The notes under the pieces were generated by a model that was given only the letters and a program-made list of their open reading frames with translations, was not told the DNA's origin and did not search any database. From assembly GCF_015709515.1 (NCBI RefSeq), contig NZ_JADNQZ010000056.1, forward strand, positions 1 through 64,000: a DNA stretch of 64,000 nucleotides. The letters are read 5' to 3'. This DNA is from Methylocystis sp. H62 (GTDB lineage Bacteria; Pseudomonadota; Alphaproteobacteria; Rhizobiales; Beijerinckiaceae). Made by a program: the position numbers and the translations under genes. Shown here one piece after another: positions 1-15,965 of the stretch. Each line of letters begins with the position of its first letter. Positions within the stretch are counted from its first letter, which is position 1.

Positions 1-17
1 CTCCGACTGAGTCGGAG
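1..17. repeat. Perfect 17-nt palindrome at window edge
   Basis: The first 17 bases form a perfect dyad, with 8-nt arms CTCCGACT and AGTCGGAG around a single G. It lies 10 bases upstream of the IS5-type transposase start. It could be part of the element's subterminal end or of the target, and the window edge prevents a decision. Confidence 0.5.
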
Positions 18-27
18 ACCAGAAGCC

Positions 28-809
28 ATGTCGACACGGATGGACGAGGAAGACTGGGCGCATACGCTCACGGTGTTTCGGGCCTGCCTTTCGCGTCGCG
101 GACGCAAAGGGAAAAACGATCGCCGCTTCCTCGAAGCACTTCATTTCTTCACGCTCCAAAACGTAAGGTGGCGCGCGCTGCCGGAACGGTTCGGACGCTG
201 AAACAGCGTCTGGAAACGCTTCGACCGCTTGAGCAAGGCCGGCGTATTCGAGGCCTTCTTCGACACGCTCGCCTCCATGAGTTCGTCGGCGCATCTGATC
301 CAGATGTTCGATTCAACGATCGTGCGCGCGCACGTATCAGCCGCAGGAGCCAAAGGGGGCAAGACGCGCAGGCGCTCGGACGGTCGCGCGGCGGCTTCAC
401 CACGAAAATCCACGCCAAGTCGGACGCGTCGGGCGACATCATCGCTTTCGATCTGACCGGCGGCGAGGCTGCCGACGCGCCGCATTTCGAAACGCTCCTC
501 GATATCGGGCCGGACATTCAGCCCCGCGTCGTCATCGGCGACAAGGGCTACGCCAGCAAGGACAATCGCGCAGCGGCGAGATCGCGCGGCGTTGCGCCCG
601 TGATCCCGTACAAGGCCAATGAGAAGAACAAGCCCGCCTTCTTCGCGCGCACGCTCTACAAGGCGCGTTCGCGGATCGAGCAGGGCTTCGGCCGGCTCAA
701 ACGATTCAAGCGCATCGCGCTACGCTGCGAGAAGACCGCCAGAAATTTCCGATCTATCGTCAGTTTCGCCGCTGGTCTCTGCTTGATCAAATTCGTCCAC
801 ACGGCCTAG
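28..809 (+). pseudogene. IS5-family (IS427-like) transposase, two-frame, with internal stop
   Basis: This is a DDE transposase of the IS5 family. The first frame starts at the ATG at 28 and shows the family's N-terminal helices (EDWAHTLTVFRACL, then FEAFFDTLASM). The catalytic half lies in the -1 frame: QALGRSRGGFTTKIH, then VIGDKGYASKD, then IEQGFGRLKRFKR, with the stop at 807-809. The frames meet at AAAGGGGG (352-359), a typical -1 slippery run, so the two-frame layout is probably programmed. The damage is elsewhere. The TGA at 199-201 interrupts the first frame where the family sequence FG(R/K)WNSVW would have Trp, so TGG has become TGA. Full-length transposase is therefore not expected unless a downstream start or readthrough is used. 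The terminal repeats could not be defined. Confidence 0.85.
352..359 (+). promoter_or_regulatory. Probable -1 programmed frameshift site
   Basis: The run AAAGGGGG sits where the upstream reading frame (codons AAA GGG GGC) and the downstream transposase frame (codons AGG GGG CAA) overlap. Slipping one base back joins the N-terminal and catalytic parts of the IS5-type protein. Such sites are known in IS5/IS427 elements. No downstream pseudoknot was modelled. Confidence 0.5.
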
Positions 810-811
810 GA

Positions 812-1035
812 CTCTCGAAATACAAAGGTGCCACGACCGCTCCCGGCCCAAAGTCCAAATTCAATTCTTCATCATACCCTATCAAAACGACAGATCCGTC
901 CTCGCAATACGAAAGAATATAGTGACACAGACGAGAGCATGCAAAGTCGTGGGGAGTATGTAAATTTTCGAGGGTTAAGGTCGCTTCTTTGGGAAAGGCG
1001 AGCCTATGCAAAAGCTGGTTTGGCGTGATCTGCTA
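812..1035 (-). pseudogene. Unrecognised gene fragment cut by the IS5 element
   Basis: An open frame of about 70 codons runs leftward without an ATG; a TTG at 1009-1011 is the only near start. It contains recognisable-looking protein text such as FACSRLCHYILSY and VVLIGYDEELNLDFG. It runs into the end of the IS5 element, and its last codons (RPCGRI) belong to the IS. Base composition is more AT-rich than the neighbours. I do not recognise the family. It may be the remnant of a host or island gene interrupted by the insertion, or a chance frame. Confidence 0.25.
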
Positions 1036-1105
1036 CCGTGAAACTGGACCGCTTTTATGTAGAGTTTCCGCGGCCTGATTCCTTGGCTGGCGGGAGTGGA
1101 AGACG

Positions 1106-1237
1106 ATGACGGCGTCGAAATTTTCGGACGCGCAGAAGGCGTTCATCTTGAAGCAAGGCTCGAAAACTCAACTTTCGGGCGGTCCAATGTTGGGGAGCAG
1201 AGCATCAAACGCCGGTTCTCTAATTGCCAGTGGATGA
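1106..1237 (+). pseudogene. IS3-family OrfA N-terminal remnant
   Basis: The ATG at 1106 opens a 43-codon frame. Its first 18 residues (MTASKFSDAQKAFILKQG) match the helix-turn-helix start of IS3-type OrfA proteins. The usual continuation through the HTH is missing, and unrelated residues follow until the stop at 1235-1237. The upstream stretch 1033-1105 resembles a short IS3-type leader. The simplest reading is that the next element (ISKra4-like) inserted into or replaced the body of an older IS3 copy. Confidence 0.45.
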
Positions 1238-2628
1238 AAGTTCAGCGGCAGGTCAGGCGGGTGAAACTCGTCACTGATCTTGGGGACGGAGCGCCAGAAA
1301 TCGACGTCGAAGTGGCCCAGATCGAAAGAGACGATTTTGCTGTTCCTGAAACGCTTGGCCTTTCGCTCGCTGAAGTGAAACGCCGCGCGCTGCTATTCAA
1401 ACGAAAATGGTCCGCGCGCAGACAGCGACGATGGGCGAGCGCTTCCGTTGCTGTACACATTGCGGATCGGACTTGCCCAGCAAAGGTTACAGATCCGTCA
1501 CGTTTCGATCGCTGTTCGGCGACGTGCCGCTTCGAGTTCGTCGGTTCGCGAACTGCCAATGCCGTCGGGCCGCGGAAGAACCGAGAAGTTTTTCGGCGTT
1601 GACGCTTGAAGGCGGCTTAGCGCCGGAACTCGCCTATGTGACCGCCAAATTCGCCGCGCTCGCGCCGTTTGCGAAGGTGGCTGATTTGCTTGCAGAATTG
1701 TTGCCCGTCGGTGGAGCCGTCAACGCAGGTACAGTGCGCAATCGAACCCGCCGTGTCGGTGAGCGTATCGCGCGGCTGCGTCCCGAAGGAGCCGCAGACC
1801 CCGACATTGATGCGGTAACTCCTGCAGTGGTGATCGGCCTCGATGGGGGCTATCTGCGCAGCCGGCATCGGCGCCCCGAACGGAATTTCGAAGTGATCGC
1901 AGGGAAGGCGCTCAATCTCGATGGTTCCCAGCACCGGTTTGCTTTTGCACGCAACGGCAATTCCACGAGTGAGTTTGCTAACGCGGTTGTGAGCGCTGGC
2001 ATCCGTCTCGGCACGCCAGCGACGGTGCTGTGCGATGGCGACCCCGGACTATGGAAGCTACAACGGCAGGTGATGCCAGAGGCAAATCTCGTCCTTGACT
2101 GGTTCCATATCGCCATGCGTTTTGAACACGCCTTGCAGGCGGCGCGCGGCCTTGGCGCCGGCACTTGCAGCGACTACCTCCAAGGCCATCCAATCCGCAA
2201 ACTCGAGAGAGCCAAGTGGAAACTTTGGCATAGTCGTTCAAGCGCATATCTTGGGCGCTTGGCGCGCCTGACGCATTGGGTTGACGCCACTCATGTCAGA
2301 GATGTCAAAGGCGCGCCCGCAGTTCGGCGACACATCAACGACCTGATTGAGTATCTCTCCGCCAATAAACCTGCGCTCGTGAACTACGGACGGCGACGCC
2401 GTGATCGGCTGCCGATTTCAACCGCCTTTGTCGAAAGCGCAGTCAACGAAAATCCTGTCAAAGCGCATGATCAAGAAGCAGCGGATGCGATGGAACAGGT
2501 GGACCGTGCAGCCCTTCCTCGACGTGCGCGTCGCCGTTCTCAACAAAACACTCGCCGGTTCGTTCAGGCGCCTCTATCCAGATTTCCAACCAGACAACGA
2601 AAACGATCCCGTGCGTCTCGCAGTCTGA
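1234..2628 (+). pseudogene. ISKra4-family transposase, two frameshifts
   Basis: This is a large DDE transposase of the ISKra4 type. The ATG at 1234 opens the N-terminal part (VKLVTDLGDGAPEIDVE, VPETLGLSLAEVK). Around 1378-1392 the coding sense moves to the -1 frame, which then carries a zinc-finger-like CCTHCGSDLPSKGY, the catalytic-region text VIGLDGGYLRSRHRRPERN, and VLDWFHIAMRFEHA. At the A-run 2448-2452 an extra base restores the first frame, giving LSKRMIKKQRMRWNRW and ending in NDPVRLAV at 2628. Two compensating indels in a single-ORF family mean the gene is dead. The element lies inside the IS-rich left part of the island. Confidence 0.85.
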
Positions 2629-2780
2629 CGAACCCCACAACCTTGCATGCTCCAAGACGTAAAGACAGCAACTCCAGGGTGGGCCTCTAGAGGGAGCATG
2701 TCTGGACGGCCCCCGTCGGTCAAGGGGTTCCTTTTGGTTCTGCACATCTCGGGCGCGGTCATGTCTACGGCCCGCTTGTG

Positions 2781-2796
2781 AAACGGCATGCCGTTT
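2781..2796. repeat. Perfect 16-bp palindrome AAACGGCATGCCGTTT
   Basis: This is an exact inverted repeat with no spacer. It lies between the ISKra4 remnant and the accessory cluster, directly next to an IS21-like end. It may be a transposon end, a recombination site or an operator. There is no evidence beyond the symmetry. Confidence 0.55.
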
Positions 2797-2840
2797 GACC
2801 CCCTATCGGCTTCCAATCAGCTTCCAAGCGTGACCCCACC
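2795..2840. mobile_element. Possible IS21-family terminal sequence
   Basis: The stretch has two copies of TGACCCC about 35 bases apart, around TATCGGCTTCCAATCAGCTTCC. IS21-type ends typically carry such repeated TGACCCC-like blocks. No istA or istB coding sequence is adjacent, so this would be an orphan end left by deletion. The assignment rests on memory of the family's ends and is weak. Confidence 0.3.
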
Positions 2841-2899
2841 AAGACGTCGACGGCTTGCTGTTTCGACGAAGGAATTTTACCATGATGGGGGTAACACAC

Positions 2900-3709
2900 C
2901 TACTGCACCGGGCTCAGCGTGAGTCGCCGCGCCTCCAACGGTGTCACGAGCGGCGGAATCGACACGTAATGGCCGGGATCCGCCCGACCGAGACAGCGGG
3001 GAAAACGCGCGGCAGGCTCGATGCGGCGCAAATCGGCCGCAGCCAGATCTGCGCCGAACATGAGCGCGAAGGTCTCGCCGGTCAACAGCATGTCCCACAC
3101 CAGATGTATGCGCGTTGCCGGCCCAGGATTAGTGGCGTCGTGGACGCAGCCCTGGTTGAAATAATAGATCGAGCGGGGCAGGAATCGGAACGCTTGGCCA
3201 TCGAGCTGCATGCGCGCCTGTCTATGGGAGCGTATCGGCAGGTGAAATCGCGCCCGCACCGCCGGCGCGCCGGCCCGGCTCATGAACAGGCTATGCTCCT
3301 CGTGCAAAGCGAGAGCCGAATTCGGCCCTAGAAGGTTGACGCGGAAGTTGATGCTGTGCGGAAAGAGAGCGATAAAGCTTGCAAGGCTCGGATAGGTTTT
3401 GCTGTGATGGAACCGTTTGCCCAGACAGGACAGGTCGTGATCGTCGCGATAATCGGTGAAATCGCCGCTGCGATTGAGCAAGCTGAATTGCCGGACGCAG
3501 CCTCGAGGCCGCGCCCAATGCGTAACATGTCCGCACTGCTGCACGTCGGAACCGGTTTCGGCGGCGCATAGGCGGTCGATTTCGCCGCGCAGCGCCAGGG
3601 AGAGATTGCGTTCGAGGGTGAACAGCCGCAAACAGCGTATGCCGCCGGCGTGGTAGTTGCCGTCCCGAATCCCGCCGAGCAGCCTATCAACTTCAGTCAC
3701 CATCTCCAT
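2900..3709 (-). CDS. Aspartyl/asparaginyl beta-hydroxylase-like Fe(II)/2OG dioxygenase
   Basis: This 269-residue protein has the cupin-type layout of the Asp/Asn hydroxylase family (PF05118-like). A first metal-ligand region lies at 131-139 (SALALHEEH). The second His is in GCVHDATN (His190). A 2-oxoglutarate-binding Arg lies in RIHLVWD (Arg200). The ATG at 3709 or the one at 3703 is the likely start, since both follow GGGAGA and overlap the end of the upstream pyruvyl-transferase-like gene. A longer frame exists but would overlap that gene by over 200 bases. The substrate is unknown. The neighbours suggest it hydroxylates a peptide, sugar or lipid built by the cluster. It is the last gene of a leftward operon. 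Confidence 0.75.
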   Translation of the reverse strand: MEMVTEVDRLLGGIRDGNYHAGGIRCLRLFTLERNLSLALRGEIDRLCAAETGSDVQQCGHVTHWARPRGCVRQFSLLNRSGDFTDYRDDHDLSCLGKRFHHSKTYPSLASFIALFPHSINFRVNLLGPNSALALHEEHSLFMSRAGAPAVRARFHLPIRSHRQARMQLDGQAFRFLPRSIYYFNQGCVHDATNPGPATRIHLVWDMLLTGETFALMFGADLAAADLRRIEPAARFPRCLGRADPGHYVSIPPLVTPLEARRLTLSPVQ

Positions 3710-4487
3710 TCTCCCGGCAAGCCGCTTGCCTGAAGGGGCAGCTCCGCCACAAGGCCTCGGTGTCCAGACTGGCGGGAGACCAGGCTTTGCTCGCGAGCGA
3801 AGCGAAACCGGCGCAGTCGTCGGCGAGGTGCGCCGCACTCGGCGGCTCGACGCCGAGCGCGGCGTAATGATCGTGGAACTTACTGCCGTCGCCCGAGGGG
3901 AGGTCGCGGAAGCTGACCCAGGCGGCCGGCACACCATAAGCGTGGCTGACGATCAGCCCGTGCAGTGAAGACGACAGGACCCACTCGCTGCGGCAAATCT
4001 GAGCGACGACCTCCTCGATTCCGGCCTGGATGTCGATCAGCACAAGCCCCGGCGGCACCCTGCCCCCGAGCCGCGCGAGGTCGGAGAAATGCGCGACCAG
4101 CGACGGGCCTTTACGCTTTAACGCGGGAGGCGGCAGGAAGCGCGGGAGCAACAAGGCGGGATCGCCATAGACCTCCGGGCAATCGGCACCGCAGGCGCGC
4201 GCGCGCCGTCCGCTCAGCGGCCCGCGCACGGCGAGAAGCCGCGCGGCAGGAGAGACGTGGTCGTCGGCGTTCATGACGCCACTGCCCCAAACCGTGCAGC
4301 GGGCGGTCGCGAAGGCGAGGATGCTCCCGGTTACGAAAAGCTTATCGCGCGGGTCCTCGGGCAACGCGAAATGGGGAGTTCGTCCGGTGATCCGGCGGAT
4401 CAGCCAGGGCGTGAGGGCGTCGCCGAAATTCGGCCGGCTCGGAATCCGGCACCAGAAGGCGAGAACGGGTCGGCTGGCCTGCTTCAT
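3693..4487 (-). CDS. Polysaccharide pyruvyl transferase-family protein
   Basis: The 264-residue protein resembles the pyruvyl-transferase fold (PF04230, CsaB-like). It opens with FWCRIPSRPNFGDALTPWL, has VWGSGVMNADD and RLLAVRGPLSGRRA, and ends with the typical SSLHGLIVSHAYGVPAAW. Members add ketal pyruvate to glycans or act as related sugar-modifying GT-B enzymes. The start at 4487 shares ATGA with the stop of the upstream glycosyltransferase-like gene, so the two are translationally coupled. It points to a cell-surface or secreted glycan as the product of the cluster. Confidence 0.82.
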   Translation of the reverse strand: MKQASRPVLAFWCRIPSRPNFGDALTPWLIRRITGRTPHFALPEDPRDKLFVTGSILAFATARCTVWGSGVMNADDHVSPAARLLAVRGPLSGRRARACGADCPEVYGDPALLLPRFLPPPALKRKGPSLVAHFSDLARLGGRVPPGLVLIDIQAGIEEVVAQICRSEWVLSSSLHGLIVSHAYGVPAAWVSFRDLPSGDGSKFHDHYAALGVEPPSAAHLADDCAGFASLASKAWSPASLDTEALWRSCPFRQAACRENGDGD

Positions 4488-5209
4488 CGCGCGTCGGCGC
4501 GCGCGCGGATGGCGCATCTGATTTCCGGCGTCAGTCCGCCCCAGCTCCAGTGCCAGTCGCAGCAAGGCCGTGGAGCCGCGGCCGTTCCCGCGACGTGGAA
4601 GCTGAACTCCTCGCGATGGAAGCGCCAAGCGTAGGCGCCGAGGACGTTGAATTCGGAAAAGCCGCGCAGCGGGCGCGAGAGCACATAAGCGTCGAGCGGC
4701 GTTCCATGTCGTTCGAGTCCGTGATCCCGCACCGCCTTGTAAAGTCCGCGGGGAAAGACGAAAGGCGGTTGCTGCATGTAGTCGTGGAGCGCCGCGAAGC
4801 CCAAGAAATCCTCGACGGGCGTACGCCAGGGATAATGCCGGCCGAGTTCGCTCACCGGCTTGGCGATGAGAAATGGCCGACCTTGCGGATGCAGGTCTTC
4901 CGGCGTTATCTTGCGCGAAAAGATGCAATCGGCGTCCACATGCGCGATGTAGTCGGCGTCGGTATAGGCGTCGGCGAACAATTTTGTGAGTTGCTGGCCG
5001 AGATAGTCGTCCTTGTAGTCGGGGCATGCAACGACGCGTATTTCCATTTCGGGCAGCCTCGCGTGGCGAAGCCAGGGCAGAGTCGATTTCGGCACGACCA
5101 CTACGGTTTCGCTGAAGCCACGGCAGTGGAGACGGATCGCCTGCAGGCAATAGCGCAGCCACTCCAGATCCTTCCAGTAGGTGCGGATGAAGATGGCCGT
5201 GCCGGTCAT
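4484..5209 (-). CDS. Glycosyltransferase-like protein (DUF6492-type)
   Basis: This 241-residue protein starts TGTAIFIRTYWKDLEWLRY and carries a DxD-type nucleotide-sugar/metal motif in HVDADCIF (residues 90-97). Further conserved-looking blocks are LGQQLTKLFADAY and WHWSWGG near the end. This matches GT-A-like proteins annotated as DUF6492 or capsule-type glycosyltransferases. The donor and acceptor cannot be told. It starts 41 bases downstream of the sulfotransferase-oxygenase fusion gene and overlaps the next gene by 4 bases, so it is part of one operon. Confidence 0.72.
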   Translation of the reverse strand: MTGTAIFIRTYWKDLEWLRYCLQAIRLHCRGFSETVVVVPKSTLPWLRHARLPEMEIRVVACPDYKDDYLGQQLTKLFADAYTDADYIAHVDADCIFSRKITPEDLHPQGRPFLIAKPVSELGRHYPWRTPVEDFLGFAALHDYMQQPPFVFPRGLYKAVRDHGLERHGTPLDAYVLSRPLRGFSEFNVLGAYAWRFHREEFSFHVAGTAAAPRPCCDWHWSWGGLTPEIRCAIRARADAR

Positions 5210-5250
5210 TGCCTCGGCCTCATCTCAGCTTGCATCGAAGACGATCCCTT

Positions 5251-7329
5251 TCAGTTCAAGGTCTCGCCGAATTTGGACGGCACGTAATGGTTCAGGAGCG
5301 TCGTGAGTGCGAGGCAAGGCGCGGGCGCGCGTTCGCGCCAGTGCGGCATGTCGTGGCCGCAGAACAGCACGGCGTCGCCTAGCGCGGCGGTCACTTCGAC
5401 GCTGCCGTCGACAGTTTCGAAGTGGATCGGCCAATCCACGGATCGGCCGCCGCTCTCATCGATGACGAAGGAGAGCGTGTAGACGCACTGCTTGCGGTCG
5501 AAATGGGGATCCAGCTCGGCACCGCTTTGATAGGCGGACACATAAGCGTAGGACGGAACGACCTTCTCGCCGGCAAGTTCGGAGACGAAGTCCCATAGTT
5601 GGTATTGGACGAATTGGGCCATGGCTTCGTTGTGCCAGCCATGTCGCCGCTCGACCTGATCGTCGCCAGCTGTCCAGAGGTCCGAGGCGATCATCGTCCG
5701 GTAATAGCGGGCGAGCGCCTGGGTGTGCGGACTTCCGATGAGACGAGGTATGACGCAATATCCGGATCGAGCGATCGTGGCCTTGAGGGCCTCCCGGGTC
5801 CTGGCGGCGGATTCCTCGCCCCCACGGCGCTCGGCCTCCGTGGCGACGATTCCGGCGGCGTGAAGTTGCGCCAGCTCTCCGCCAAGATTTGGCGCCGGCC
5901 GGCCGGCTTCAAGGCGGCGATACAGGAGGGCCTGCTCGCGGGGCGCCCAGAACGGAAGGTAGCTTTCCGTCAGCGCGGAGCGCACCCAGAGGATCGGTTG
6001 ATCACCAAGGAAACGGCCGCGGAAGCGCGCGCTGCCGGCGAGTCCCAACGGAATGCTGTTGCCCATTTGGTAACGAAAGCTCGGATCGACGATCAGCTCC
6101 TCGGACGCCGCCGAAGCTGTGGGCTGCACGTCGCGCAGGAAGCAGGCGAAGCGGACGCCCGGGATTTCGATCGTCTGCGGCGAGGCGATTGCGGCGGGGC
6201 GCTCCTGCAGATCAAGGCTGCGCAGACGTCCGCCGAGGCTGCGGACCCTATTTTCCAGTCGTCCGGCGTCGAGCGCCGGGTTCCGTCGCCATTTCAGCGA
6301 CGACGGCGGCGATATCGTGGTCGCGCTAAGCGCCGGCGTTCGGTCGAGGAAGGCCTCAAATTTCGCATCCGTTTCAAGGCCGAGGAAACGGCAGAGCCGC
6401 AGCGCCGTTCGCTTCGGGGCGGCGATGAGTTCGTTATAATCGACATGCGCCCAGCGGTTGCGGTCCAACCCGTCGAGATCGTCGAGCGCATGCCGATACG
6501 CCGACGCCCATTGGGCGGTAACGACGTCTTGAAGGGAGCGCCCGGCAAGCCGCCGCCACTCGGGCGGCAGAAGAAAACACCACTTACCGTCCGGCCAGTC
6601 CGGCAGCTCCAGGAACCTGTCGAAGCCGCCATGACGCCAAGCTTCCATCAGGCTGCTGACGCTCTGGCGCGCATCGCGATGCAGGAGGATGAAGAAGCTG
6701 TCCGGAAAGGCCTGCGCCAGGAATGAAACCCGCAGGGCGTTCTCGGTCGTCTTGTCGAGAATGCGAAGCTGGGCCGGACCGGTTCCGGCCGGCAGGGCGT
6801 CCAGCTGCTGACCGGAGCGGTCGCGCAGGTCGAACATGAGGCCGGCGCGCAGGATCTCGGCGACATCCCCGCCGGCGTCCTCGTCGGTCAGCCGATCCGA
6901 CGTGAAGCCGCGTTCGGCAGGGTGAAGGCCGACGATCCCCTCCACCGCCCCTTGGCCTTCGCTGCCCTGTGTCCACAGCCCCGGCGCTTGCGCGAGAAGG
7001 TCAAACAGAAGGGTGCTGCCCGAGCGGGGCGCTGCGATGATGAAGACGGGCCGGTCGAGCTTGCCGCCCCTGGCTGAGTCGGCCACGACGGGAGGCGGCG
7101 TCTCTCCGAGACGAGCCGAAAGCAGGCGATATGCGGGATCGGCTTGGAAGGACTGCAAGTCCGCCGAGTCCCGGACCAGATAGAAGCCGCGCAGCGCGCG
7201 CGCCTCCAGCCGCCATTGCCGCGCCAGAAGGCCGGCAAGACGCGGCGCCGGCAGAGCGACCGTGGTCCTCCACGCGCCCCGCGCCGCGAAGGCGTCAATT
7301 CCGTCCCAGCCCAGCCGCACGCTGTGCAT
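5251..7329 (-). CDS. Sulfotransferase fused to a 2OG-Fe(II) oxygenase
   Basis: This 692-residue protein has two catalytic parts. The N-terminal third is a PAPS-dependent sulfotransferase. Its 5'-phosphosulfate loop is in PVFIIAAPRSGSTLLFDLL (94-112), and its 3'-phosphate motif is in LLHRDARQSVSSL (216-228). The C-terminal domain is an Fe(II)/2-oxoglutarate oxygenase. It has the His-x-Asp pair in PHFDRKQ (His609, Asp611), the second His in GHDMPHWRE, and basic or aromatic residues beyond for cosubstrate. A middle segment (about 370-540) of unknown role links them. GGAGG stands 8 bases before the ATG. The protein probably hydroxylates and sulfates the same acceptor, which is not known. The joining of these activities in one chain is unusual. 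Confidence 0.83.
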   Translation of the reverse strand: MHSVRLGWDGIDAFAARGAWRTTVALPAPRLAGLLARQWRLEARALRGFYLVRDSADLQSFQADPAYRLLSARLGETPPPVVADSARGGKLDRPVFIIAAPRSGSTLLFDLLAQAPGLWTQGSEGQGAVEGIVGLHPAERGFTSDRLTDEDAGGDVAEILRAGLMFDLRDRSGQQLDALPAGTGPAQLRILDKTTENALRVSFLAQAFPDSFFILLHRDARQSVSSLMEAWRHGGFDRFLELPDWPDGKWCFLLPPEWRRLAGRSLQDVVTAQWASAYRHALDDLDGLDRNRWAHVDYNELIAAPKRTALRLCRFLGLETDAKFEAFLDRTPALSATTISPPSSLKWRRNPALDAGRLENRVRSLGGRLRSLDLQERPAAIASPQTIEIPGVRFACFLRDVQPTASAASEELIVDPSFRYQMGNSIPLGLAGSARFRGRFLGDQPILWVRSALTESYLPFWAPREQALLYRRLEAGRPAPNLGGELAQLHAAGIVATEAERRGGEESAARTREALKATIARSGYCVIPRLIGSPHTQALARYYRTMIASDLWTAGDDQVERRHGWHNEAMAQFVQYQLWDFVSELAGEKVVPSYAYVSAYQSGAELDPHFDRKQCVYTLSFVIDESGGRSVDWPIHFETVDGSVEVTAALGDAVLFCGHDMPHWRERAPAPCLALTTLLNHYVPSKFGETLN

Positions 7330-7465
7330 CTGTCATCCTCCAGGATGCATGCCGGGCGACCGATTGGATGTTTCAAACATGGCAGGGCGTCCAACGATCC
7401 ACCCGAAACTACGGGGGAGACGGGGACCACCGGCCGCCGCCGCCTCCTGTCCCTTGTCACGCCCG

Positions 7466-8827
7466 TCAGTCGCGCCGGTGAATCCAGCCGTTGACGGTGA
7501 ACCTCGAGTCCCCGAATTCGCCGCTCGGCACCCGCACCGGTAGAACTTCGTGGTCATTGGCGCTGGCGAAGAAGAACAGCGTGTCCTGCCGCGGCGACAA
7601 CGTCTGGAAATGATCCGCAGGCAGGAGCTGTCCGGCGACCATTTTCTTGCCGTAGATGCGTAGTTCGCCGCCAGAGAACCGGCGCGGTTCGCGGAAGAAA
7701 TGATAAGCGAAAGAGACCTCGCGGGTGCTCTTGGAACCGGTGTCGGAATGGAGACGGTAGAAATCGCCATTGCCGCTCGCCGTTATCTGCATTTCGATCT
7801 GGCCGACCGGGAAACCCGGAAGTTTCAGCTTCTTGAGCGCCGGCTCCAGATGCTGCGTCAGCGCTTTCGCGAAGACATCCTTGAACGGGCCGAGATCGTC
7901 CAGCGTTCGCGCGCGGCGGACGACCTCGTCAACCGAGGCGCAATCGCTGGCGTCCCGAACGACCATCGCCGGCGTAAATCTCGATTCCGACGCCAGCGCG
8001 TACTGCATTAACTGATCGCGAGCCGGCCCAAGCATATTTGCGAAGCTGACGACAAACTCCACCTCGGAGATCGGATCGACTTCCCATCGTCCGGTGCCGC
8101 TCGGCACGCCGCCCGGCTTGCCGGCATGACCGCCGCGCACGAGGCGGATGATTTCAGAGGCGAGGCCTTCCGTGCCGAGCCATTCCGCCAGCGATCCCAT
8201 ATAGATAGTCTGATGGAAATACGACTGCGCCGCCAAGGCCCGACTGTCGATCGCGTGAGCGAGCAGGTCGGGCGTCGGTGTGTTGGCAATGCCCAGCGCC
8301 TCCTGAACCTTATCGACCGCGGCGCGATACGTATGATAGCGGGCGTGGGGCGTGACGAAGACATCCTCGGTCTTTCCGAAGCCGCTTTGCGTCAGGACGT
8401 GGTCGGCGAGGGTCGAATGCTCGGCCGCGAGATAGCAAATTTCGGCTCTCGGATGCGCCGAGAGCTGGTCCAACGCCTCTTTGTAGACGGCGCTGATGAG
8501 ACCGATGTTGGTCAACTCCTGTGGTAATGTGTAGACTGGCGAGACAGCATAGCTGCCGTCGGCGATGGAATGGGTCACGCATATCGCAACGATCTCGCGA
8601 GAGCCGAGCCCCCAAGGTGGCCACGGCCGGTCGCGCACCGCCGCGACGATCCTGGCGTCGCCTTCCGCAAGGGTCGGCAGAAGGAACTCGTCGATGAGAT
8701 GTGGCGCGCCCAAGCGGCGGGCGAACTGCCGCAGCGCCGCCAAAATTTGTGCATTCAATTCTTCGAAAACGTCGATCCGGGTGACTCTGTTGCCAGCGTC
8801 GAAGAAATGTTCGTTTTCTCTCAGCAT
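7466..8827 (-). CDS. Multidomain prolyl-hydroxylase-like 2OG-Fe(II) oxygenase
   Basis: The C-terminal 100 residues of this 453-residue protein are a complete Fe/2OG oxygenase site: FYRLHSDTGS (His360, Asp362), GGELRIYG, NDHEVLPV (His426) and FTVNGWIHR (Arg443). The N-terminal 150 residues look like an acyltransferase-type (GNAT-like) fold, with text such as EICYLAAEHSTLADHVL, but no catalytic residue can be assigned with confidence. The middle contains a predicted helical segment. GGAG lies 10 bases before the ATG. It is separated by 136 bases from the sulfotransferase fusion downstream and is divergent from the glycosyltransferase at 8933. The product is likely a tailored peptide or glycan. 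Confidence 0.72.
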   Translation of the reverse strand: MLRENEHFFDAGNRVTRIDVFEELNAQILAALRQFARRLGAPHLIDEFLLPTLAEGDARIVAAVRDRPWPPWGLGSREIVAICVTHSIADGSYAVSPVYTLPQELTNIGLISAVYKEALDQLSAHPRAEICYLAAEHSTLADHVLTQSGFGKTEDVFVTPHARYHTYRAAVDKVQEALGIANTPTPDLLAHAIDSRALAAQSYFHQTIYMGSLAEWLGTEGLASEIIRLVRGGHAGKPGGVPSGTGRWEVDPISEVEFVVSFANMLGPARDQLMQYALASESRFTPAMVVRDASDCASVDEVVRRARTLDDLGPFKDVFAKALTQHLEPALKKLKLPGFPVGQIEMQITASGNGDFYRLHSDTGSKSTREVSFAYHFFREPRRFSGGELRIYGKKMVAGQLLPADHFQTLSPRQDTLFFFASANDHEVLPVRVPSGEFGDSRFTVNGWIHRRD

Positions 8828-8932
8828 GTGAGAGCTCCACGAAAGAATAAATGAGAACCATAACTATCTTTTTCTAAAAAGGTGCACGCTCGGGCTTCAT
8901 TTGTCAATTACAATCTAGGAGAGGCTCTTTCC
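8828..8932. promoter_or_regulatory. Divergent intergenic region with AT-rich core
   Basis: This 105-base gap separates two genes that run apart. It includes an AT-rich core (8847-8881, with CTTTTTCTAAAAAGG) that is the best place for promoters of both transcripts. AGGAGAGG at 8917-8924 is the Shine-Dalgarno of the rightward gene. No clear -35/-10 pair could be fixed. Confidence 0.4.
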
Positions 8933-9859
8933 GTGATCGCAAGCCTGTCTTGGCCGTTCGAAGCTGTTCTTGACGCCCGTGGAGAAGAAATCGGCTGGAT
9001 TGCGATCCATGGCCCCGTCCTCGCTTCCGCTCAGCAGGAGCAATTCGCCGAACTTCGGCGCAAGCGCGCTCGCTTCCTCGGCGTCACCAGCTATCTCGAT
9101 TTTCCCCGCCACGACCCTCGCGACCCTCTCGATTATGAGGGGCTTTGCGAGGCGTGGTGCCATTGTTTCCGTGATCCCAATGCTTATTTCACTTATTCTG
9201 CCCCACGCGCCCTCATAAGCGTCTCCGACTTCACCGACTGGTTGCTCCTGCGGCGGCGCGCGGGGTCCATTGCCCCAGAGAGCCTTCCGGCCGAATTCGA
9301 TTACGTCTATGTCGGCGGTGTCGACCCTTGGCGGAAGGGAGTGAAGAACTGGGCTCTTGCGGCGCGCTGCGTCCCGATGATTTACAACCGCCTGGGTCTG
9401 CGCGCCTTGGTAATTGGCGAAGCCGACGAGGTGTTTCTGCAACAGCCGGGGGTTTCGTTTGTTCAAGCTCTTCCTTGGGAGAGCCTGCTGGCGGCGATTG
9501 CCGGGTCCCGGTTTCTTCTGGCGCCTAACCGAAGCGACCCGTCGCCCCGGGTCTTGGCGGAGGCCCTTTGTCTCGACGTGCCGGTTGTGGTCGACCGGGC
9601 CATCCTCGGCGGCTGGAAATATGTGAACCGCTTCACCGGCCGCTTCTTTGACGGCGAGGAGAACGTTCTCGACGCTGCGCGCGACTGCGCCGAGGGCCGG
9701 GTTCGTCCTGACGGCTGGTTCCGCAGTCAGTTCGGACCGGAACTCTCCGGCCGACGGTTGGCGACGCTGCTACGCTCTGTCGATCCAGGTTTAGGCCGCG
9801 ACGCCTCGCTGCAGCTCAGCGCCGCCGGGCCGTGCGGGGGTTCGCCGGCGAAAGATTGA
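8933..9859 (+). CDS. Glycosyltransferase family 1/4-like (GT-B)
   Basis: This 308-residue protein has the C-terminal half of a GT-B glycosyltransferase. It shows YVYVGGVDPWRKGVKNW, then LLAPNRSDPSPRVLAEAL, where the Ser/Pro-rich loop and Glu (ARVLxEAL-type) bind the nucleotide sugar, then VPVVVDRAILGGWKYVN. I choose the GTG at 8933 because AGGAGAGG lies 8 bases before it; an in-frame GTG at 8882 lacks such a site. It is the only rightward gene of the cluster. Its last 44 bases overlap the converging DUF1826 gene. The donor sugar is unknown. Confidence 0.75.
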   Translation: MIASLSWPFEAVLDARGEEIGWIAIHGPVLASAQQEQFAELRRKRARFLGVTSYLDFPRHDPRDPLDYEGLCEAWCHCFRDPNAYFTYSAPRALISVSDFTDWLLLRRRAGSIAPESLPAEFDYVYVGGVDPWRKGVKNWALAARCVPMIYNRLGLRALVIGEADEVFLQQPGVSFVQALPWESLLAAIAGSRFLLAPNRSDPSPRVLAEALCLDVPVVVDRAILGGWKYVNRFTGRFFDGEENVLDAARDCAEGRVRPDGWFRSQFGPELSGRRLATLLRSVDPGLGRDASLQLSAAGPCGGSPAKD

Positions 9860-10709
9860 CGACGAGCCGCGGCGTGCCCGACATCGGCGAGCAATGCAGC
9901 CATGTGCGGCCGGACGGGTGAAGGTTCCAGAGCTCCCGGACGTCGAGATGGCGGAAGGCGACGACAGCGCCGGGCGGCGTCCGGTAGACTTTGGCGCCCT
10001 TTCTGAGAAAGGGCAGCATCTCGTCGAGGTTCAGCATGGATGACCTTCGGCGATCAGCCGCGGCGGCGTCTTCCTTCTGCAGCGCCGCCCGCCATTCGGC
10101 CGAGAGCCGCTCGCGCTTGCCGAGGTAGTCGTAGAACCGACCCATGTCCGGCATGTCGCGGGCCAGGACGTAGCGCGTCGCCTCGCCGTTATAGACCTTG
10201 AGGAGACCGAAAGGGGGCAGGCCGGGGCCAACCGTGTCGATATGGAAGCCGCAGATTTCGGTCGGCGCTTCGACCAGGACCCGCAGCAAGACGCTGTTGC
10301 ACCCCGCCAATTGGCGCAGCTCATCGGCCATCACTGCTATGTCGTCGATCAGCGCGAGTCGCGTCGCGAATGCGAGACCCTCCTCTGGGAGGCTCGCTTC
10401 GAGGATCGAGGGCAGTTCCTCGATGCGGGCGGTCGGAAGGGTCAGCCGCTCGAAACGGAATGCGCCGCTCTCCACCACCGCCCCCAGCCTTTCTTCCCAT
10501 TCCGGGCGCCGGCTTGGCCGGACGAAGACGGCTTGCACCGCAGGATCGCGAAGCCGTTCAATTGCTGCAAACTCCTCGGCGAAGATGATCCCGCTCGCTT
10601 CAGCCTCGATCTCGACGGAGTCTACAACCCTGTTCATGCCGTCCGTCCGGATGTTTCGCGCCACCTCTGGCCCGACACTGGAGACTATCGACACACGCGA
10701 CGAGGTCAA
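9816..10709 (-). CDS. DUF1826 family protein
   Basis: This 297-residue protein matches the DUF1826 pattern. It has a His-x-Asp in ICGFHIDTVG, a mid-protein region rich in acidic and basic residues, AVVAFRHLDVRELW, and a C-terminal LHCSPMSGTPRLVVNLSP. The HxD plus a late His and Arg are reminiscent of cupin/2OG oxygenases, but DUF1826 has no established reaction that I know. An alternative start is the ATG at 10637. It converges on the glycosyltransferase and may be a fourth metal-dependent modifier of the same product. Confidence 0.65.
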   Translation of the reverse strand: MTSSRVSIVSSVGPEVARNIRTDGMNRVVDSVEIEAEASGIIFAEEFAAIERLRDPAVQAVFVRPSRRPEWEERLGAVVESGAFRFERLTLPTARIEELPSILEASLPEEGLAFATRLALIDDIAVMADELRQLAGCNSVLLRVLVEAPTEICGFHIDTVGPGLPPFGLLKVYNGEATRYVLARDMPDMGRFYDYLGKRERLSAEWRAALQKEDAAAADRRRSSMLNLDEMLPFLRKGAKVYRTPPGAVVAFRHLDVRELWNLHPSGRTWLHCSPMSGTPRLVVNLSPANPRTARRR

Positions 10710-10777
10710 TCATCCGACCTCGCTTTACACCACATTGTCAGCTTGCCGGCCCTGACCTCTGGCTCTTATCCTGCACG

Positions 10778-11472
10778 ATGACGAAAATCAGCTACGCCGG
10801 TTACCGCTTTCCGCCCGAGATCATTCAACAGGCAATCTGGCTCTATGTCAGATTCACTTTAAGCTTCCGCGACGTCGAGGATTTGCTAGCGGAACGCGGG
10901 ATCGCGGTCTCTTATGAAACCGTGAGACGATGGGTCAATTATTTTGGGCCAAGATCGCAGCCGATCTGCGCAAACGCCGGCCGAAGCCGCACACCACATG
11001 GCATCTCGACGAAGTCTATCTCAAGATCGATGGACGCTTGGTTTATCTGTGACGCGCCGTCGATAGTGAAGGAGAGGTTCTGGATGTCTTGGTCCAGACC
11101 AGGCGGAATAAGACCGCAGCGCTGAAATTAATGCGCAAGCTTCTGAAGAAATATGGCTTTGCGCCGGAGAATTTGGTGACCGACGATCTGCGGTCTTACC
11201 ATGCCGCCGCGCGTGATCTTGGGATCGAACAGCGGCATCTCACCGGCCGATGGCGAAACAACAGAGCGGAGAATTCTCATCAACCAACCCGACGACGAGA
11301 ACGCAAGATGCAAGGTTTCAAGAGCGTTGGTTCAGCACAAAGATTTCTCTCCTTTCACGCAGCAGCCCACAACATCTCCAACGTTCAACGCCATCTCATT
11401 TCAGCAAGGACGCACCGAGCTTTTCGAGGCTCGGCCATGGACACATGGCGTTTGGCCACTGCTGAAGCATAA
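10778..11472 (+). pseudogene. IS6-family transposase, frameshift plus nonsense
   Basis: The intact IS6-type protein can be read in two pieces. The first, from the ATG at 10778, gives YRFPPEIIQQAIWLYVRF and SFRDVEDLLAERGIAVSYE. A 1-base deletion near 10948-10958 (after VNYFGP) moves the sense to the -1 frame, which continues with the DEVYLKIDGR segment, then VTDDLRSYHAA, GRWRNNRAENSHQPTR and a final KM. A TGA at 11050-11052 replaces the family's Trp after RLVYL. The gene is therefore doubly inactivated. It sits between the tailoring cluster and the integrase and may once have helped to assemble the island. Confidence 0.88.
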
Positions 11473-11768
11473 ACAAGATCGTCAATGAGATTATTCGCGT
11501 CTTTCGTTCGACAACGTGACAAAGCCGGCGCGACGGGTTTAGAGGACGGCTTCGCACGACGCGCCGCGGCCGCGCCATCGGCGCGGGTTCAAGGCTCAAC
11601 GGGTGGGGCGAATCGCTTTCCAACATGCGCGGAATCGTAGGCGCGGAACGGGTCCAGCGGCAAGCCACGGCGGCGCTTTATCGTTAAATTTAGCGCCCGA
11701 TCCGCCGCGCTTGTCTTTCCTCCATCATGTCCGATAATGTGGGCTTATCGGATACATTTTGAGATAGA
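11473..11768. other. Gap between IS6 remnant and integrase
   Basis: No coding sequence is convincing in this 296-base gap. The only structure seen is the inverted repeat at 11730-11752 just after the integrase stop. A leftward open frame across 11396-11668 overlaps the IS6 remnant and has no recognisable content. Confidence 0.4.
11730..11752. repeat. Inverted repeat TCCGATAA-N7-TTATCGGA
   Basis: This is a perfect 8-bp inverted repeat with a 7-base spacer, just beyond the integrase stop codon. It could act as a hairpin at the end of the integrase transcript, but no T-run follows on the minus strand. It may instead be a recombinase or regulator site. Confidence 0.5.
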
Positions 11769-13010
11769 TTAAACGCACAAGTGAGCTCGCCTACGAACTT
11801 GAATCGACAAATGTTTAGCATCCGATTTTGAACTTGGATCACTGTCACAGCTTTTGTTAAGCGCTGCAGCAATGGTCTCACCGATTGTATCCGCTGCGCG
11901 CCGGATCGGATCGGCGTCGAGATGGGCATAGCGGCTAGTAGTCGAAGCCTGCGTGTGACCCAGAAGCTTGCCGACGATCGGCAAGCCAAGCCCTGCTCCG
12001 GCGCCGACGCTGGCGAAAGAGTGGCGCAGGTCATGAATGCGCAAGTCCGGAAGATTGGCGGCCTCGGTCACCGCCGCCCACGGCTTCTTGAGATCCGCTC
12101 GCGGCACTTTTGGATCTGCGCCGGGTATGACGCAATCTCCGACGCGCCCCAAAGATCGAATTACCGCCAGTGCTGGCGCGTTAAGAAAGATCGTTTTTTT
12201 GCCAGTCTTGGAATCGGGTAGGAACAGCAAGCCCCGCTCCATATCGACATGTTCCCAACGGAGGTGAAGGATCTCGCGCAGGCGCGCGCCGGTAAATAGC
12301 AGGAGCCGAAGCGCAGCAATCCCGTCTCGAAATCGCCCGTCGTTCTCAAATCGACGGAAGGCTTCTCCGAGCCGCGCCAATTCCCCCATAGTTAGGAAGC
12401 GCTCCCGGCGCGATTCGGGGAACCGTTCAATCCGAGCAGCCGGATTACATCCATCTGCAACTAGTCCAAGCCGCTCCGCGAAAGAATACATGCTCGCGAC
12501 CACCGCGAGCAGCCGATTTGCCTGATAGGGACGGTTCCGCATCGAAAGATGTATCCGCGCGAGATCGGACCCAACAAAATCATGCGCCTTCCGAGGACCA
12601 TGTTTGGGCAGGACATAGCGTTCTATTAGGCTGCGGTAATGAGCCGCGGTCGTGCCCTTCCGCTTCGGGCTGACGTGCTCGGCGAGAAATCTCCTCGCCA
12701 GTTCATCGACAGTGATTGCCGCTCGCTCCCCCCGACGTTCTTCTACGGGGTCACGACCGCGACACACATTGGCCAGAACTGCCTGAGCCAGCCCCCTCGC
12801 CTGCTCCGGCGTCAAATGTCCGAATCGACCGATCGCGAGGAAGCGTTTCCGACCCGAAATACGATATCGGACAAGGAACGTTTTTGTCCCTGACGGCTCC
12901 ACCCGAAGCCCAAGGCCCTTTAGAGTTCTGTCCCAGACGACATAACGCTCAGACTCAGGCTGCGCCATGTCGACAATCCGCTTTGTCAGCTTCGCAATCC
13001 GCACGCTCAT
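11769..13010 (-). CDS. Tyrosine recombinase/integrase (P4-type, DUF4102-like N-terminus)
   Basis: This 413-residue phage/island integrase has an N-terminal arm-binding domain (RTLKGLGLRVEPSGTKTF, RISGRKRFLAIGRFG), a SAM-like core-binding domain, and the C-terminal catalytic domain. Catalytic residues are visible: Arg in FTGARLREILHLRW, HDLRHSFAS (His-x-x-Arg), HTQASTTSRYAHL with the nucleophilic Tyr, and His in LLGHTQ. The ATG at 13010 follows GGAG and gives a normal family length; a longer frame to 13151 runs into the tRNA-like attachment region. It reads away from the tRNA-Lys fragment 148 bases upstream and is the likely agent that inserted the island. Confidence 0.92.
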   Translation of the reverse strand: MSVRIAKLTKRIVDMAQPESERYVVWDRTLKGLGLRVEPSGTKTFLVRYRISGRKRFLAIGRFGHLTPEQARGLAQAVLANVCRGRDPVEERRGERAAITVDELARRFLAEHVSPKRKGTTAAHYRSLIERYVLPKHGPRKAHDFVGSDLARIHLSMRNRPYQANRLLAVVASMYSFAERLGLVADGCNPAARIERFPESRRERFLTMGELARLGEAFRRFENDGRFRDGIAALRLLLFTGARLREILHLRWEHVDMERGLLFLPDSKTGKKTIFLNAPALAVIRSLGRVGDCVIPGADPKVPRADLKKPWAAVTEAANLPDLRIHDLRHSFASVGAGAGLGLPIVGKLLGHTQASTTSRYAHLDADPIRRAADTIGETIAAALNKSCDSDPSSKSDAKHLSIQVRRRAHLCV

Positions 13011-13157
13011 CGGGCTCCATTGGTGACCATATGGTGACCACCAGAAAGAAAGTCGCCGACGGCAATCGGAAAGCGCCTCGCCAGATTTGTCAATGATAAT
13101 CAATACATTATCGCAGCGTGGCGTAAAATCGGATAGCGTGGAATAGCCCATGGATGA

Positions 13158-13204
13158 GACTTTTAATCAGGGGGTCGTGGGTTCGAGCCCCACCGCGCTC
13201 ACCA
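13158..13204 (+). other. attR: 3' fragment of tRNA-Lys(TTT)
   Basis: These 47 bases reproduce a tRNA from the anticodon loop (CTTTTAA, anticodon TTT) through the variable region, a perfect T-arm (GTGGG-TTCGAGC-CCCAC), the 3' acceptor strand CGCGCTC, the discriminator A and CCA. The 5' half is absent: no GAGCGCG acceptor strand or D-arm occurs upstream, and the anticodon stem's 5' side does not pair. This is what site-specific integration into a tRNA gene leaves at the distal junction. The intact tRNA would lie at the other end of the island, left of this window. Confidence 0.75.
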
Positions 13205-13265
13205 ACATTATCAATTCGTCAAGGCGGCGGCATCGCAATCGGACTGAGAATTTCGAGGGCCGAAT

Positions 13266-13700
13266 ATGGACGAATGGGTCGCGCATATCGCGGCGTCGGT
13301 CGGCATCGCGCCCGCGGTCGCGAGACTCGCCGTCGGTCACGTTTTCGGCTTCCTCCAGAAGCGCCATCCGAACGGCCCTGCCGACGAACTGATCGAGAAA
13401 ATCCCCGGTGCTGAAGCCGCGATAAGGGACGCTGCGGCGGCGCCGCGGCGGGGTCTGCTCGGCGGCGTGCTCGGAGGGGTCGGCGGCCTGGTGGGCGGCG
13501 CGAAAGGCGACGTCCTTGCGCTGACGGCTCGTTTGACGAGCCTGGGTCTCTCTCCAGACCAGCTTCAAAGGCTCGCCAGAGAGATCTTCGGCGGCGCGGA
13601 GCAGGTTATCGGCAGAGAGAAGCTGCGAAGCATGACTGATTCGATTCCTGGCCTATCGCAATTTCTCTGGCCGAAGTCGCGATCGGCGCGTCTCAGGTAA
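13266..13700 (+). CDS. DUF2780/DUF2267-like conserved protein
   Basis: This is a 144-residue protein. The N-terminal part has IAASVGIAPAVARLAVGHVFGFL, the middle is Gly-rich (RGLLGGVLGGVGGLVGG), and the C-terminal part has LGLSPDQLQRLAREIF and SIPGLSQFL. This resembles small DUF2780/DUF2267-type proteins of unknown function, in which a C-terminal helix-loop ends in IPGL. It is the first chromosomal gene after the island junction. GAGGGC lies upstream of the ATG. No signal peptide is seen. Confidence 0.6.
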   Translation: MDEWVAHIAASVGIAPAVARLAVGHVFGFLQKRHPNGPADELIEKIPGAEAAIRDAAAAPRRGLLGGVLGGVGGLVGGAKGDVLALTARLTSLGLSPDQLQRLAREIFGGAEQVIGREKLRSMTDSIPGLSQFLWPKSRSARLR

Positions 13701-14066
13701 GGAAGAGGCGCGCGGGCGCCGACGCGCTTCGACAGGCATCCGCCGAATTGCTCGCCGTCGTGGTCATCCCAGAACGCGCAAGCGGCGCACGTTGAAGGCG
13801 CAGAATTGCGGGGTTCAAGGCTTGGCCGCCGGCGCGTGCGCCAAGAACCAGGTCCGTACCCAATGTCGGCGCGAATTCGCGCGACATTTCCGCAACTCAG
13901 CGAAGCCTTTGGCGACGTTCAGGGCTTGTCGATGCGCTCACCCATCGTCGTCCTGGAATCGTCTTGAGAGACAGCGCCCCATGCCGGACTCGCGCAGGCA
14001 AGATCGAGCGGCTGTTTAGCAAAATAACTCGCGTGTAAAACTTCGCATCTTGCCCGAACAGGAGCG
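13701..14066. other. Intergenic stretch, no supported gene
   Basis: Short open frames occur on both strands but none has a convincing ribosome site or recognisable content. I see no tRNA, terminator or repeat here. Confidence 0.4.
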
Positions 14067-14321
14067 CTAATGAGCTTTGCTCGAGCGAAACCCACGCCGG
14101 CAACTGCGCATCTTGTGAGTCTTGCAGCTTCCGTATCTGTAAGACGGCCGTGGTCTGAATGTCTCATAGCCATTCCCAGGCGGATTTTGCTCCTGCACCA
14201 TGTTCTCCAAGACCACGGTCCCGATCGGGCCCATATCTCCTTGAGCCACAAGGGAAGTTGGACTTAGGAGCGCCAATGAGACAAACACCGACGAAAACAG
14301 GTTAACCCCACGACATTTCAT
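14067..14321 (-). CDS. Small putative secreted protein
   Basis: This 84-codon frame starts with a good export signal: a basic start (MKCRG), a hydrophobic core (LFSSVFVSLALLSPTSLV) and an Ala-Gln cleavage-like end. GGGGA stands about 7 bases before the ATG. The mature part is short and rich in Pro, Arg and Ser, with no family I recognise. It may be truncated or frameshifted near its 3' end. It could be a real small exported protein next to the envelope locus, but independent support is lacking. Confidence 0.35.
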   Translation of the reverse strand: MKCRGVNLFSSVFVSLALLSPTSLVAQGDMGPIGTVVLENMVQEQNPPGNGYETFRPRPSYRYGSCKTHKMRSCRRGFRSSKAH

Positions 14322-14705
14322 GCTTTTTCCCCAATTTACCAGGTAGAGCGATCAGCTTATTAGCTATCATTGTACTTCGATTGAATACAAGAAGGCGTCT
14401 TACATTCATCTAAAGTTCATAATTCGGAACCGTTCCATAATTCTCATTTTGCACTTCACCAACGACGTTAACCTCTCATCGCCGAGGTTATCCACATAGG
14501 CTCGAAGGGCCATGTTTTTTCCATGATAAACTGAAAATATCGATGTAACTTCGATGTGTTAGCCCTTCTACATTGCACTGCAAGACGATGTTGCACTTTC
14601 GCCACAGTTATTACTAAAAGTGGTTATCGGGATATTTAGTGGCTGGACGGATCGACCGCTCTTCGACAACTCTGCGCCACGATGACTGGCGCGCTGGTCG
14701 TCTGA
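14322..14705. other. AT-rich intergenic region with one DnaA-box-like site
   Basis: This 384-base gap is clearly more AT-rich than its surroundings and has no gene. It contains one TTATCCACA (14488-14496), which equals the DnaA-box consensus, but no second copy in an array. The AT-rich sequence probably holds promoters for flanking genes, though no pair of hexamers could be fixed. Confidence 0.4.
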
Positions 14706-15561: not shown

Positions 15562-15622
15562 TCTTAGCGAGCCTGGCTAACATCGAGGGCGGCGTGCAGC
15601 ATATGTTCAAAGGATCAGTCCT

Positions 15623-15892: not shown

Positions 15893-15965
15893 CTCTTAGC
15901 GCTTTGTCTTTGAGAGAGCGCCGCCGCGCGCTTGGTCGTCATTTTTCGAGAGCTGGGAATAGACG

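Follow-up and report, generated by a model that had tools for sequence, protein, structure and literature searches.

In Methylocystis sp. H62, the 270140-base contig C56 begins with the 64000 bases studied here, referred to as the window. A cassette of seven genes at window positions 2900-10709, named A to G here, encodes predicted oxygenases, a polysaccharide pyruvyl transferase family member, putative glycosyltransferases, a sulfotransferase fusion and a DUF1826 protein. The cassette recurs as a unit on a betaproteobacterial plasmid and, with six of its seven genes, in a metagenome-assembled genome (MAG), and no scaffold, export or regulatory genes were recognised inside it at any of these three loci. 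With a confidence that falls slightly short of even, it is interpreted as a self-contained tailoring cassette that brings no scaffold of its own and modifies a peptide or protein whose gene lies elsewhere.

Gene content and organization of the cassette

An earlier note on this DNA had described seven genes for modifying enzymes in this region, five of them tightly packed leftward, and had proposed a profile search of each protein. The search against Pfam yielded the following assignments, in which the E-values are whole-protein values.

2900..3709, minus strand: gene A, AspH-type oxygenase (aspartyl/asparaginyl beta-hydroxylase type), Asp_Arg_Hydrox 6.9e-6
3693..4487, minus strand: gene B, polysaccharide pyruvyl transferase family, PS_pyruv_trans 2.8e-11
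4484..5209, minus strand: gene C, GT-A-like glycosyltransferase (DUF6492 region), DUF6492 4.1e-6
5251..7329, minus strand: gene D, Sulfotransfer_3 N-terminal half and oxygenase-like C-terminal domain, 3.9e-24
7466..8827, minus strand: gene E, N-terminal region without family and prolyl-4-hydroxylase-like domain of the 2-oxoglutarate (2OG)-Fe(II) type, 2OG-FeII_Oxy_3 2.6e-14
8882..9859, plus strand: gene F, GT-B-like glycosyltransferase, Glyco_trans_1_4 1.3e-5, below cut-off
9816..10709, minus strand: gene G, DUF1826 protein, DUF1826 1.3e-7

A scan of the seven proteins with NCBIfam returned no family above its cut-off. On homology and synteny all seven are judged to be real genes, and both the described gene set and the leftward packing are borne out by the Pfam families, the orthologues found elsewhere and the tandem of genes A to E on the minus strand. 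Gene F is transcribed rightward and gene G leftward, tail to tail with F. The open reading frame (ORF) of gene A is too long as called, with a start at about 3703-3709 that overlaps the end of gene B.

Recurrence of the cassette in unrelated genomes

Each cassette protein was compared by tblastn with 72,556 plasmid records. The numbers of records matched, followed by those in which the match covered 80% or more of the query, were 6 and 1 for E, 6 and 1 for D, 3 and 1 for A, 1 and 1 for G, 1 and 1 for F, 18 and 8 for B, and 2 and 1 for C. The top record for all seven proteins was plasmid NZ_CP106953 of the betaproteobacterium Eleftheria terrae, on which the genes span 7.7 kb and the products show pairwise identities of approximately 61-62% (A), 59% (B), 58% (C), 53% (D), 66% (E), 53% (F) and 47% (G). 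A second relative was detected by scanning a collection of 84,980 species for gene E with two short patterns and 157 tested stretches, a procedure that provides a lower bound. This relative, a contig of Proteobacteria bacterium SZAS AMP-55 (L022, MAG G445), contains A, B, C, G, E and D in a cluster and lacks F, for which no match was found anywhere in the MAG at E<=0.001. The orthologues of A, C, D, E and G from L022 were aligned and that of B was read from its ORF only; identities were 53% for A, 55% for C, 50% for D and 67% for E. Accordingly, the recurrence in unrelated genomes that the earlier note had named as a check was observed, with seven of seven genes in E. terrae and six of seven in L022.

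The gene order (< leftward, > rightward) is A< B< C< D< E< F> G< in the window and, after reverse complementation, D< E< F> G< C> B> A> in E. terrae and D< E< G< C> B> A> in L022. The order and orientation of D-E-F-G is therefore common to an alpha- and a betaproteobacterium, and A-B-C forms an operon that lies on either side of the remaining cassette, depending on the locus. Moreover, three overlaps are shared by the window and E. terrae, namely those between A and B (approximately 11-17 bp and 11 bp, respectively), B and C (4 bp in both) and the tail-to-tail pair F and G (44 bp and 38 bp). The shared D-E-F-G order and the three overlaps identify the cassette as a unit, and the conserved order and overlaps are, judged without a statistic, far from chance. 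Since linkage, order and overlaps have been maintained, the gene products probably work together. A fortuitous gathering of unrelated or decaying genes on the island, which might be suspected from the insertion sequence (IS) elements on both sides of the cassette and from the location of A-B-C in the window, which differs from that in the other two loci, is hardly credible and is refuted by the E. terrae and L022 clusters, as the seven genes are all open and have their orthologues, in part in co-linear arrangement, in a cluster from a different bacterial class.

The intergenic gaps measure 41, 54 and 136 bp in the window, 14, 17 and 99 bp in E. terrae and approximately 37, 114 and 192 bp in L022, where the starts of B and E were placed by hand. 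Because these gaps are short, only a very short precursor ORF could fit between the genes. A conserved precursor gene within the cassette was considered and rejected on this ground, very short ORFs not having been searched exhaustively.

Predicted properties of the cassette proteins

The catalytic motifs named in the earlier note are all present. The APRSGST motif, tested as the 5'-phosphosulfate-binding (5'-PSB) loop, and the HRDAR motif do not vary among three orthologues, nor do the HxD sites; SSLHG is invariant in the two that were aligned. The claim of several Fe/2OG oxygenases is supported by profiles for A and E, and for D and G by motifs only. Protein A scores 26.4 bits against an Asp_Arg_Hydrox cut-off of 22.6, and its residues H143, H197 and R207, invariant across three orthologues, may serve as ligands. 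Protein E scores 54.4 bits against the 2OG-FeII_Oxy_3 cut-off of 27, carries an invariant HxD...H...R pattern (H360, D362, H426 and R442 in three orthologues) and matches the alpha subunit of prolyl 4-hydroxylase in a PDB profile search (1.4e-4). Its N-terminal 255 residues gave no Pfam match. A GNAT fold, suspected by eye for this region, was not adopted; the lone structural model, computed from the window and L022 rows, reached a mean predicted local distance difference test (pLDDT) score of 35.8 and was not used. Protein G displays an oxygenase-like HxD...H...R pattern (H156, D158, H272 and R281, invariant in three orthologues) and is thus regarded as a putative oxygenase.

The sulfotransferase part of D scores 86.5 bits against the Sulfotransfer_3 cut-off of 27 and has the invariant features of sulfotransferases that depend on 3'-phosphoadenosine-5'-phosphosulfate (PAPS). 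Residues 380-692, comprising the second half of the protein, matched no Pfam family at E<=5, including the 2OG families, so that the designation as an oxygenase-like domain refers to the HxD...HxxxHWR residues (HxD 609/611, H659/H663 and R665), which are invariant in three orthologues.

Protein B contains the motifs NFGDALTPW and SSLHG and scores 44.3 bits against the PS_pyruv_trans cut-off of 25.3. In protein C, the motifs DADC and DWHWSWGG are invariant; the DxD-type motif along with a weak GT2-like match (0.018, below cut-off) suggests a glycosyltransferase. The Glyco_trans_1_4 match of protein F amounts to 25.9 bits, under the cut-off of 27.

A peptide or protein as the proposed substrate class

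The families encoded by the cassette can be arranged into a tailoring route, of which we infer the catalytic steps, their order and the peptide or protein nature of the substrate. The oxygenases (A and E by profile, the C-terminus of D and G by motif) would hydroxylate side chains of a peptide or protein, the glycosyltransferases C and F would assemble a short sugar on the hydroxylated product, B would place a pyruvate ketal on a sugar, and a hydroxyl group would be sulfated by the sulfotransferase half of D, probably with PAPS. Members of the AspH and prolyl-hydroxylase families are known to accept peptidyl or amino-acid substrates, and the membership of A in the former along with the match of the E domain to prolyl hydroxylases is counted in favour of a peptide or protein substrate.

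Additional indications were obtained from the neighbourhoods of relatives. Relatives of D were sought in 19 genomes, comprising 17 genomes with relatives of the E-type domain, genome G046 and the MAG, and were detected in five of them, in one only weakly and with the sulfotransferase part. In two of the 17 genomes (G100 and G378), a relative of the D C-terminus adjoins the E-type gene in the same order and on the same strand. Both loci contain genes for an asparagine synthase and a Sulfotransfer_1 protein nearby (profile-checked), and an HPr-kinase-like gene is present close by in G378 (22 bits, below cut-off) and G100 (by eye). In G378, two matches to the lasso B2 family (PF13471) are located within 6 kb. 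The adjacent E- and D-type oxygenases near asparagine synthase are counted towards a peptide product. A weak E-type relative of Azospirillum (26% identity) lies among genes for asparagine synthetase, B2 and PqqD, and another such relative, in Pseudanabaena, is found beside LanM and Nif11 genes. These neighbourhoods lean towards peptide products.

Two further observations are counted on the same side, namely a match of the D sulfotransferase profile to protein-tyrosine sulfotransferases (5e-5) and a lasso-type locus in the Methylocystis sp. H62 genome itself. The latter (C43:50500-62500; L096 4698-8047) shows a B2 match above cut-off and, by eye, HPr-kinase-like and asparagine-synthase-like ORFs within an exopolysaccharide-like region; no oxygenase or sulfotransferase was recognised among its ORFs of at least 200 aa. 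This locus is a candidate partner of the cassette.

Several results weigh against a peptide or protein substrate. Neither a gene for a precursor peptide nor one for a leader-binding protein could be recognised in the cassette, with the limit given above for short precursors, and the combination of B with two glycosyltransferases is more typical of glycans. D-type relatives occur in only two of the 17 genomes with E-type domain relatives, and G046 has a D-type relative and no reported E-type relative. The only B2 match of G100 is approximately 230 kb distant, and the cassette-bearing MAG, whose completeness is not stated, has no B2 match in its genome, so that the cassette may not generally require a lasso peptide. 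Moreover, the tie to lasso-type loci involves the oxygenase domains only, as the sulfotransferases encoded there best match another Pfam family. The E-type oxygenase near a non-ribosomal peptide synthetase (NRPS) in Gloeocapsa and the best PDB matches of D, described below, also point elsewhere.

The cassette as a lasso cluster in its own right was rejected since the core genes for cyclase, B2 and precursor were not recognised in it. No cyclase or B2 gene was identified among the ORFs of window positions 1-16000, the annotated E. terrae genes (L007) and the L022 ORFs of at least 180 aa, and a B2 profile gave no match on contig C56, in the MAG or on the E. terrae plasmid.

The main and serious rival is the decoration of a surface glycan, which we regard as possible but clearly not the likeliest outcome. 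In this case, C and F would extend an existing polysaccharide, lipopolysaccharide or S-layer glycan, B would pyruvylate and D sulfate it, and the oxygenases would hydroxylate sugars or attached amino acids. The PS_pyruv_trans gene and the two glycosyltransferase-like genes are in line with this explanation, as are plasmid-borne relatives of C and of B, one each, in Methylobacterium and Polaromonas, which have glycosyltransferase genes nearby and are located within approximately 5 kb of genes for type I secreted and calcium-binding (repeats-in-toxin, RTX-like) proteins. Two other B relatives that were examined had no such neighbourhood of secreted-protein and glycosyltransferase genes. On the other hand, E belongs among the prolyl-hydroxylase-like oxygenases, and genes of a polysaccharide operon (polymerase, flippase, ligase, ABC exporter and nucleotide-sugar genes) were not recognised in the cassette at the three loci. 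The sulfated, hydroxylated surface glycan or glycopeptide that the earlier note had suggested as product was not demonstrated; the cassette gave no recognisable substrate or precursor, nor a polymerase or flippase.

Tailoring of a small non-ribosomal or polyketide product made elsewhere appears unlikely. It would account for the best PDB profile matches of the D sulfotransferase, which are two polyketide-pathway sulfotransferases including CurM (2e-7 and 1.8e-6), and for the NRPS neighbourhood in Gloeocapsa, but at none of the three loci did the stretches that were seen contain an annotated or recognised NRPS or polyketide synthase next to the cassette.

An origin of A-B-C from a phage module, with phage or secreted structural proteins as the substrates, is very improbable. 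Such an origin would fit viral contig L090 (IMGVR_UViG_3300037470_000126), which has genes for AspH (the relative of A), pyruvyl transferase, two GT2 proteins, a kinase, a protein without family and a GT-B protein in a row, and the occurrence of C relatives in 31 IMG/VR viral contigs. In the three of these that were read (L059, L066 and L079), an FkbM-like methyltransferase gene is adjacent by eye, and in two of them (L066 and L079) capsid- or portal-like genes lie near the C relative, likewise by eye. In contrast, IMG/VR scans with E, D, G and B revealed no relatives, with two short patterns each that missed the B relative of L090, and phage structural genes were not recognised next to the cassette.

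A peptide or protein encoded elsewhere thus remains the favoured substrate. A more far-reaching version of this interpretation, which is speculative and rather doubtful, is that of a transferable, substrate-gene-free post-translational modification system for a resident protein or ribosomal peptide, in which side chains would be hydroxylated and the freshly introduced hydroxyls would receive a short sugar that is then capped with pyruvate and sulfate. Such a system would be the bacterial equivalent of sulfated hydroxyproline-type glycans, disseminated between proteobacterial classes via plasmids and integrative elements.

Relatives of the D sulfotransferase domain were additionally noted on an Asticcacaulis plasmid (L009, 1026-8894) and a Diaphorobacter plasmid (L010, 4351-9958), with a TonB receptor gene and an AspH gene, or a TIGR03032 gene and a gene for an IPTL-CTERM surface protein, as neighbours.

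Comparison with known systems

The lasso-type cluster of G378 (L039) shares with the cassette the adjacent E- and D-type oxygenase genes in order and strand and has a sulfotransferase gene within 5 kb, whereas the cassette is without recognised cyclase, B2, PqqD and precursor genes, and its sulfotransferase is of the Sulfotransfer_3 family and fused in D. CsaB/WcaK-like proteins are polysaccharide pyruvyl transferases and share the PS_pyruv_trans family with B, but no S-layer or exopolysaccharide operon was recognised around B. The viral module of L090 resembles the cassette in the adjacency and order of A and B (33% and 32% identity), followed by glycosyltransferase genes; it differs in that the latter are of the GT2 and GT-B types and that no relative of D, E or G was recognised in the stretch read. 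The row on L090 extends over positions 3998-10769 and includes, in order, genes for sugar dehydratase-like, kinase-like, AspH, pyruvyl transferase, two GT2, kinase-like, family-less and GT-B proteins.

CanE of canucin A is reported to perform the Asp beta-hydroxylation of a lasso precursor (PMC8498205). It resembles the cassette oxygenases in its described function, as a 2OG oxygenase that modifies a ribosomal peptide; in contrast, it acts as the sole oxygenase within the cluster of its own peptide. DUF1826 proteins have been placed in Zur-regulated COG0523 clusters (PMC2770081); they share the DUF1826 family with G, in the context of a zinc regulon instead of a tailoring cassette. The consecutive entries 1738-1748 of a long table in PMC10040529 include a lasso B2 protein, a nucleotidyltransferase, two sulfotransferases, an aspartyl hydroxylase, PqqD, asparagine synthase and a glycosyltransferase, a series that may reflect a lasso-type locus with tailoring of this sort.

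In agreement with the earlier note, which knew of no described system with this set, no description of the seven genes as a unit was found in searches of an open-access library, subscription papers lying mostly outside the search, and nothing was found there on DUF6492 or on TIGR03032 with a sulfotransferase. The enzyme families and the tailoring logic are known; the combination and its mobile, scaffold-less form were unmatched in the search. Should its substrate be a peptide or protein, the cassette would represent a portable kit for hydroxylated, glycosylated, pyruvylated and sulfated products and would provide a functional context for DUF1826 and DUF6492. It is a small testable unit, as removal or transfer of the seven genes should alter one class of molecules.

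Rarity and genomic context

The cassette is rare in the genome samples searched, which overlap, were drawn from larger groups and in which, for the most part, scoring was confined to the few best candidates of each genome. Protein D matched in six of 61 genomes at E<=0.001, with full length only in Methylocystis sp. H62, and 36 congeners (seven of them less than 90% complete) provided only two matches, both weak and confined to the sulfotransferase part. Protein E had matches at E<=1e-10 in 11 of 385 class genomes, three of 398 phylum genomes, four of 349 genomes from the order to which the MAG belongs and four of 149 family genomes; within each of these four samples the full-length protein was restricted to the genome of the window or the MAG, and the remaining matches comprised the 2OG domain alone. 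Protein A was found at E<=1e-15 in one of the 385 class genomes, that of Methylocystis sp. H62. There was no match to E among GenBank phages and none in PHROGs for the five proteins submitted (A, B, C, E and F). Both the accessory nature ascribed to the cassette and its location on an integrated island, likewise proposed before, are supported, the latter by the integrase and the 40-bp repeat in the following list and by conjugation-type genes, recognised by eye, on contig C54.

1407..2690, plus strand: ISKra4-family transposase at the left border of the cassette, NCBIfam 213.3 bits (cut-off 205)
10778..11472, plus strand: IS6-family transposase remnant in two ORFs at the right border, NCBIfam IS6 64.3 bits (cut-off 125), first ORF only
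11769..13151, minus strand: tyrosine integrase of the island, Pfam Phage_integrase 1.4e-19 and Arm-DNA-bind_3 8.6e-18
13165..13204, plus strand: att repeat, 40-bp 3' end of tRNA-Lys, with an exact second copy at C54:160643-160682

The second copy of the 40-bp repeat, the sole other one in the genome with up to two mismatches, is located inside an intact tRNA-Lys gene. By eye, the predicted products of ORFs downstream of this gene resemble ParB, a Toprim protein, a VirB1-like transglycosylase, VirD4/TraG, TrbB, TrbE, TrbL and TrbG. The simplest reading is one integrative conjugative element that probably carries the cassette at its integrase end, although C54 and C56 are unjoined contigs and a single element across both would have to span them. 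No convincing repeats framing the cassette itself were detected. The GC content of the cassette (0.59-0.67) is inside the range of the remaining window, and composition is therefore uninformative with regard to an island origin.

The host genome comprises 4.54 Mb in 59 contigs and encodes a PF02461 (AMO/PmoA) protein, so that the strain is probably a methanotroph. Downstream of the tRNA-Lys gene, C54:166963-170994 (L056 7464-11495) encodes a protein of 1343 aa with, by eye, an N-terminal helix-turn-helix-like region and an NTPase-like stretch, which is perhaps a defence protein. Near the end of C54, a separate sulfotransferase-like gene was noted by eye at 211450-212391 (L058 11951-12892), preceded by phytochrome- and sensor-kinase-like genes. 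Just beyond the island, at window positions 14944-16550, two short ORFs encode Gln/Asn/Ser-rich proteins that appear curlin-like by eye.

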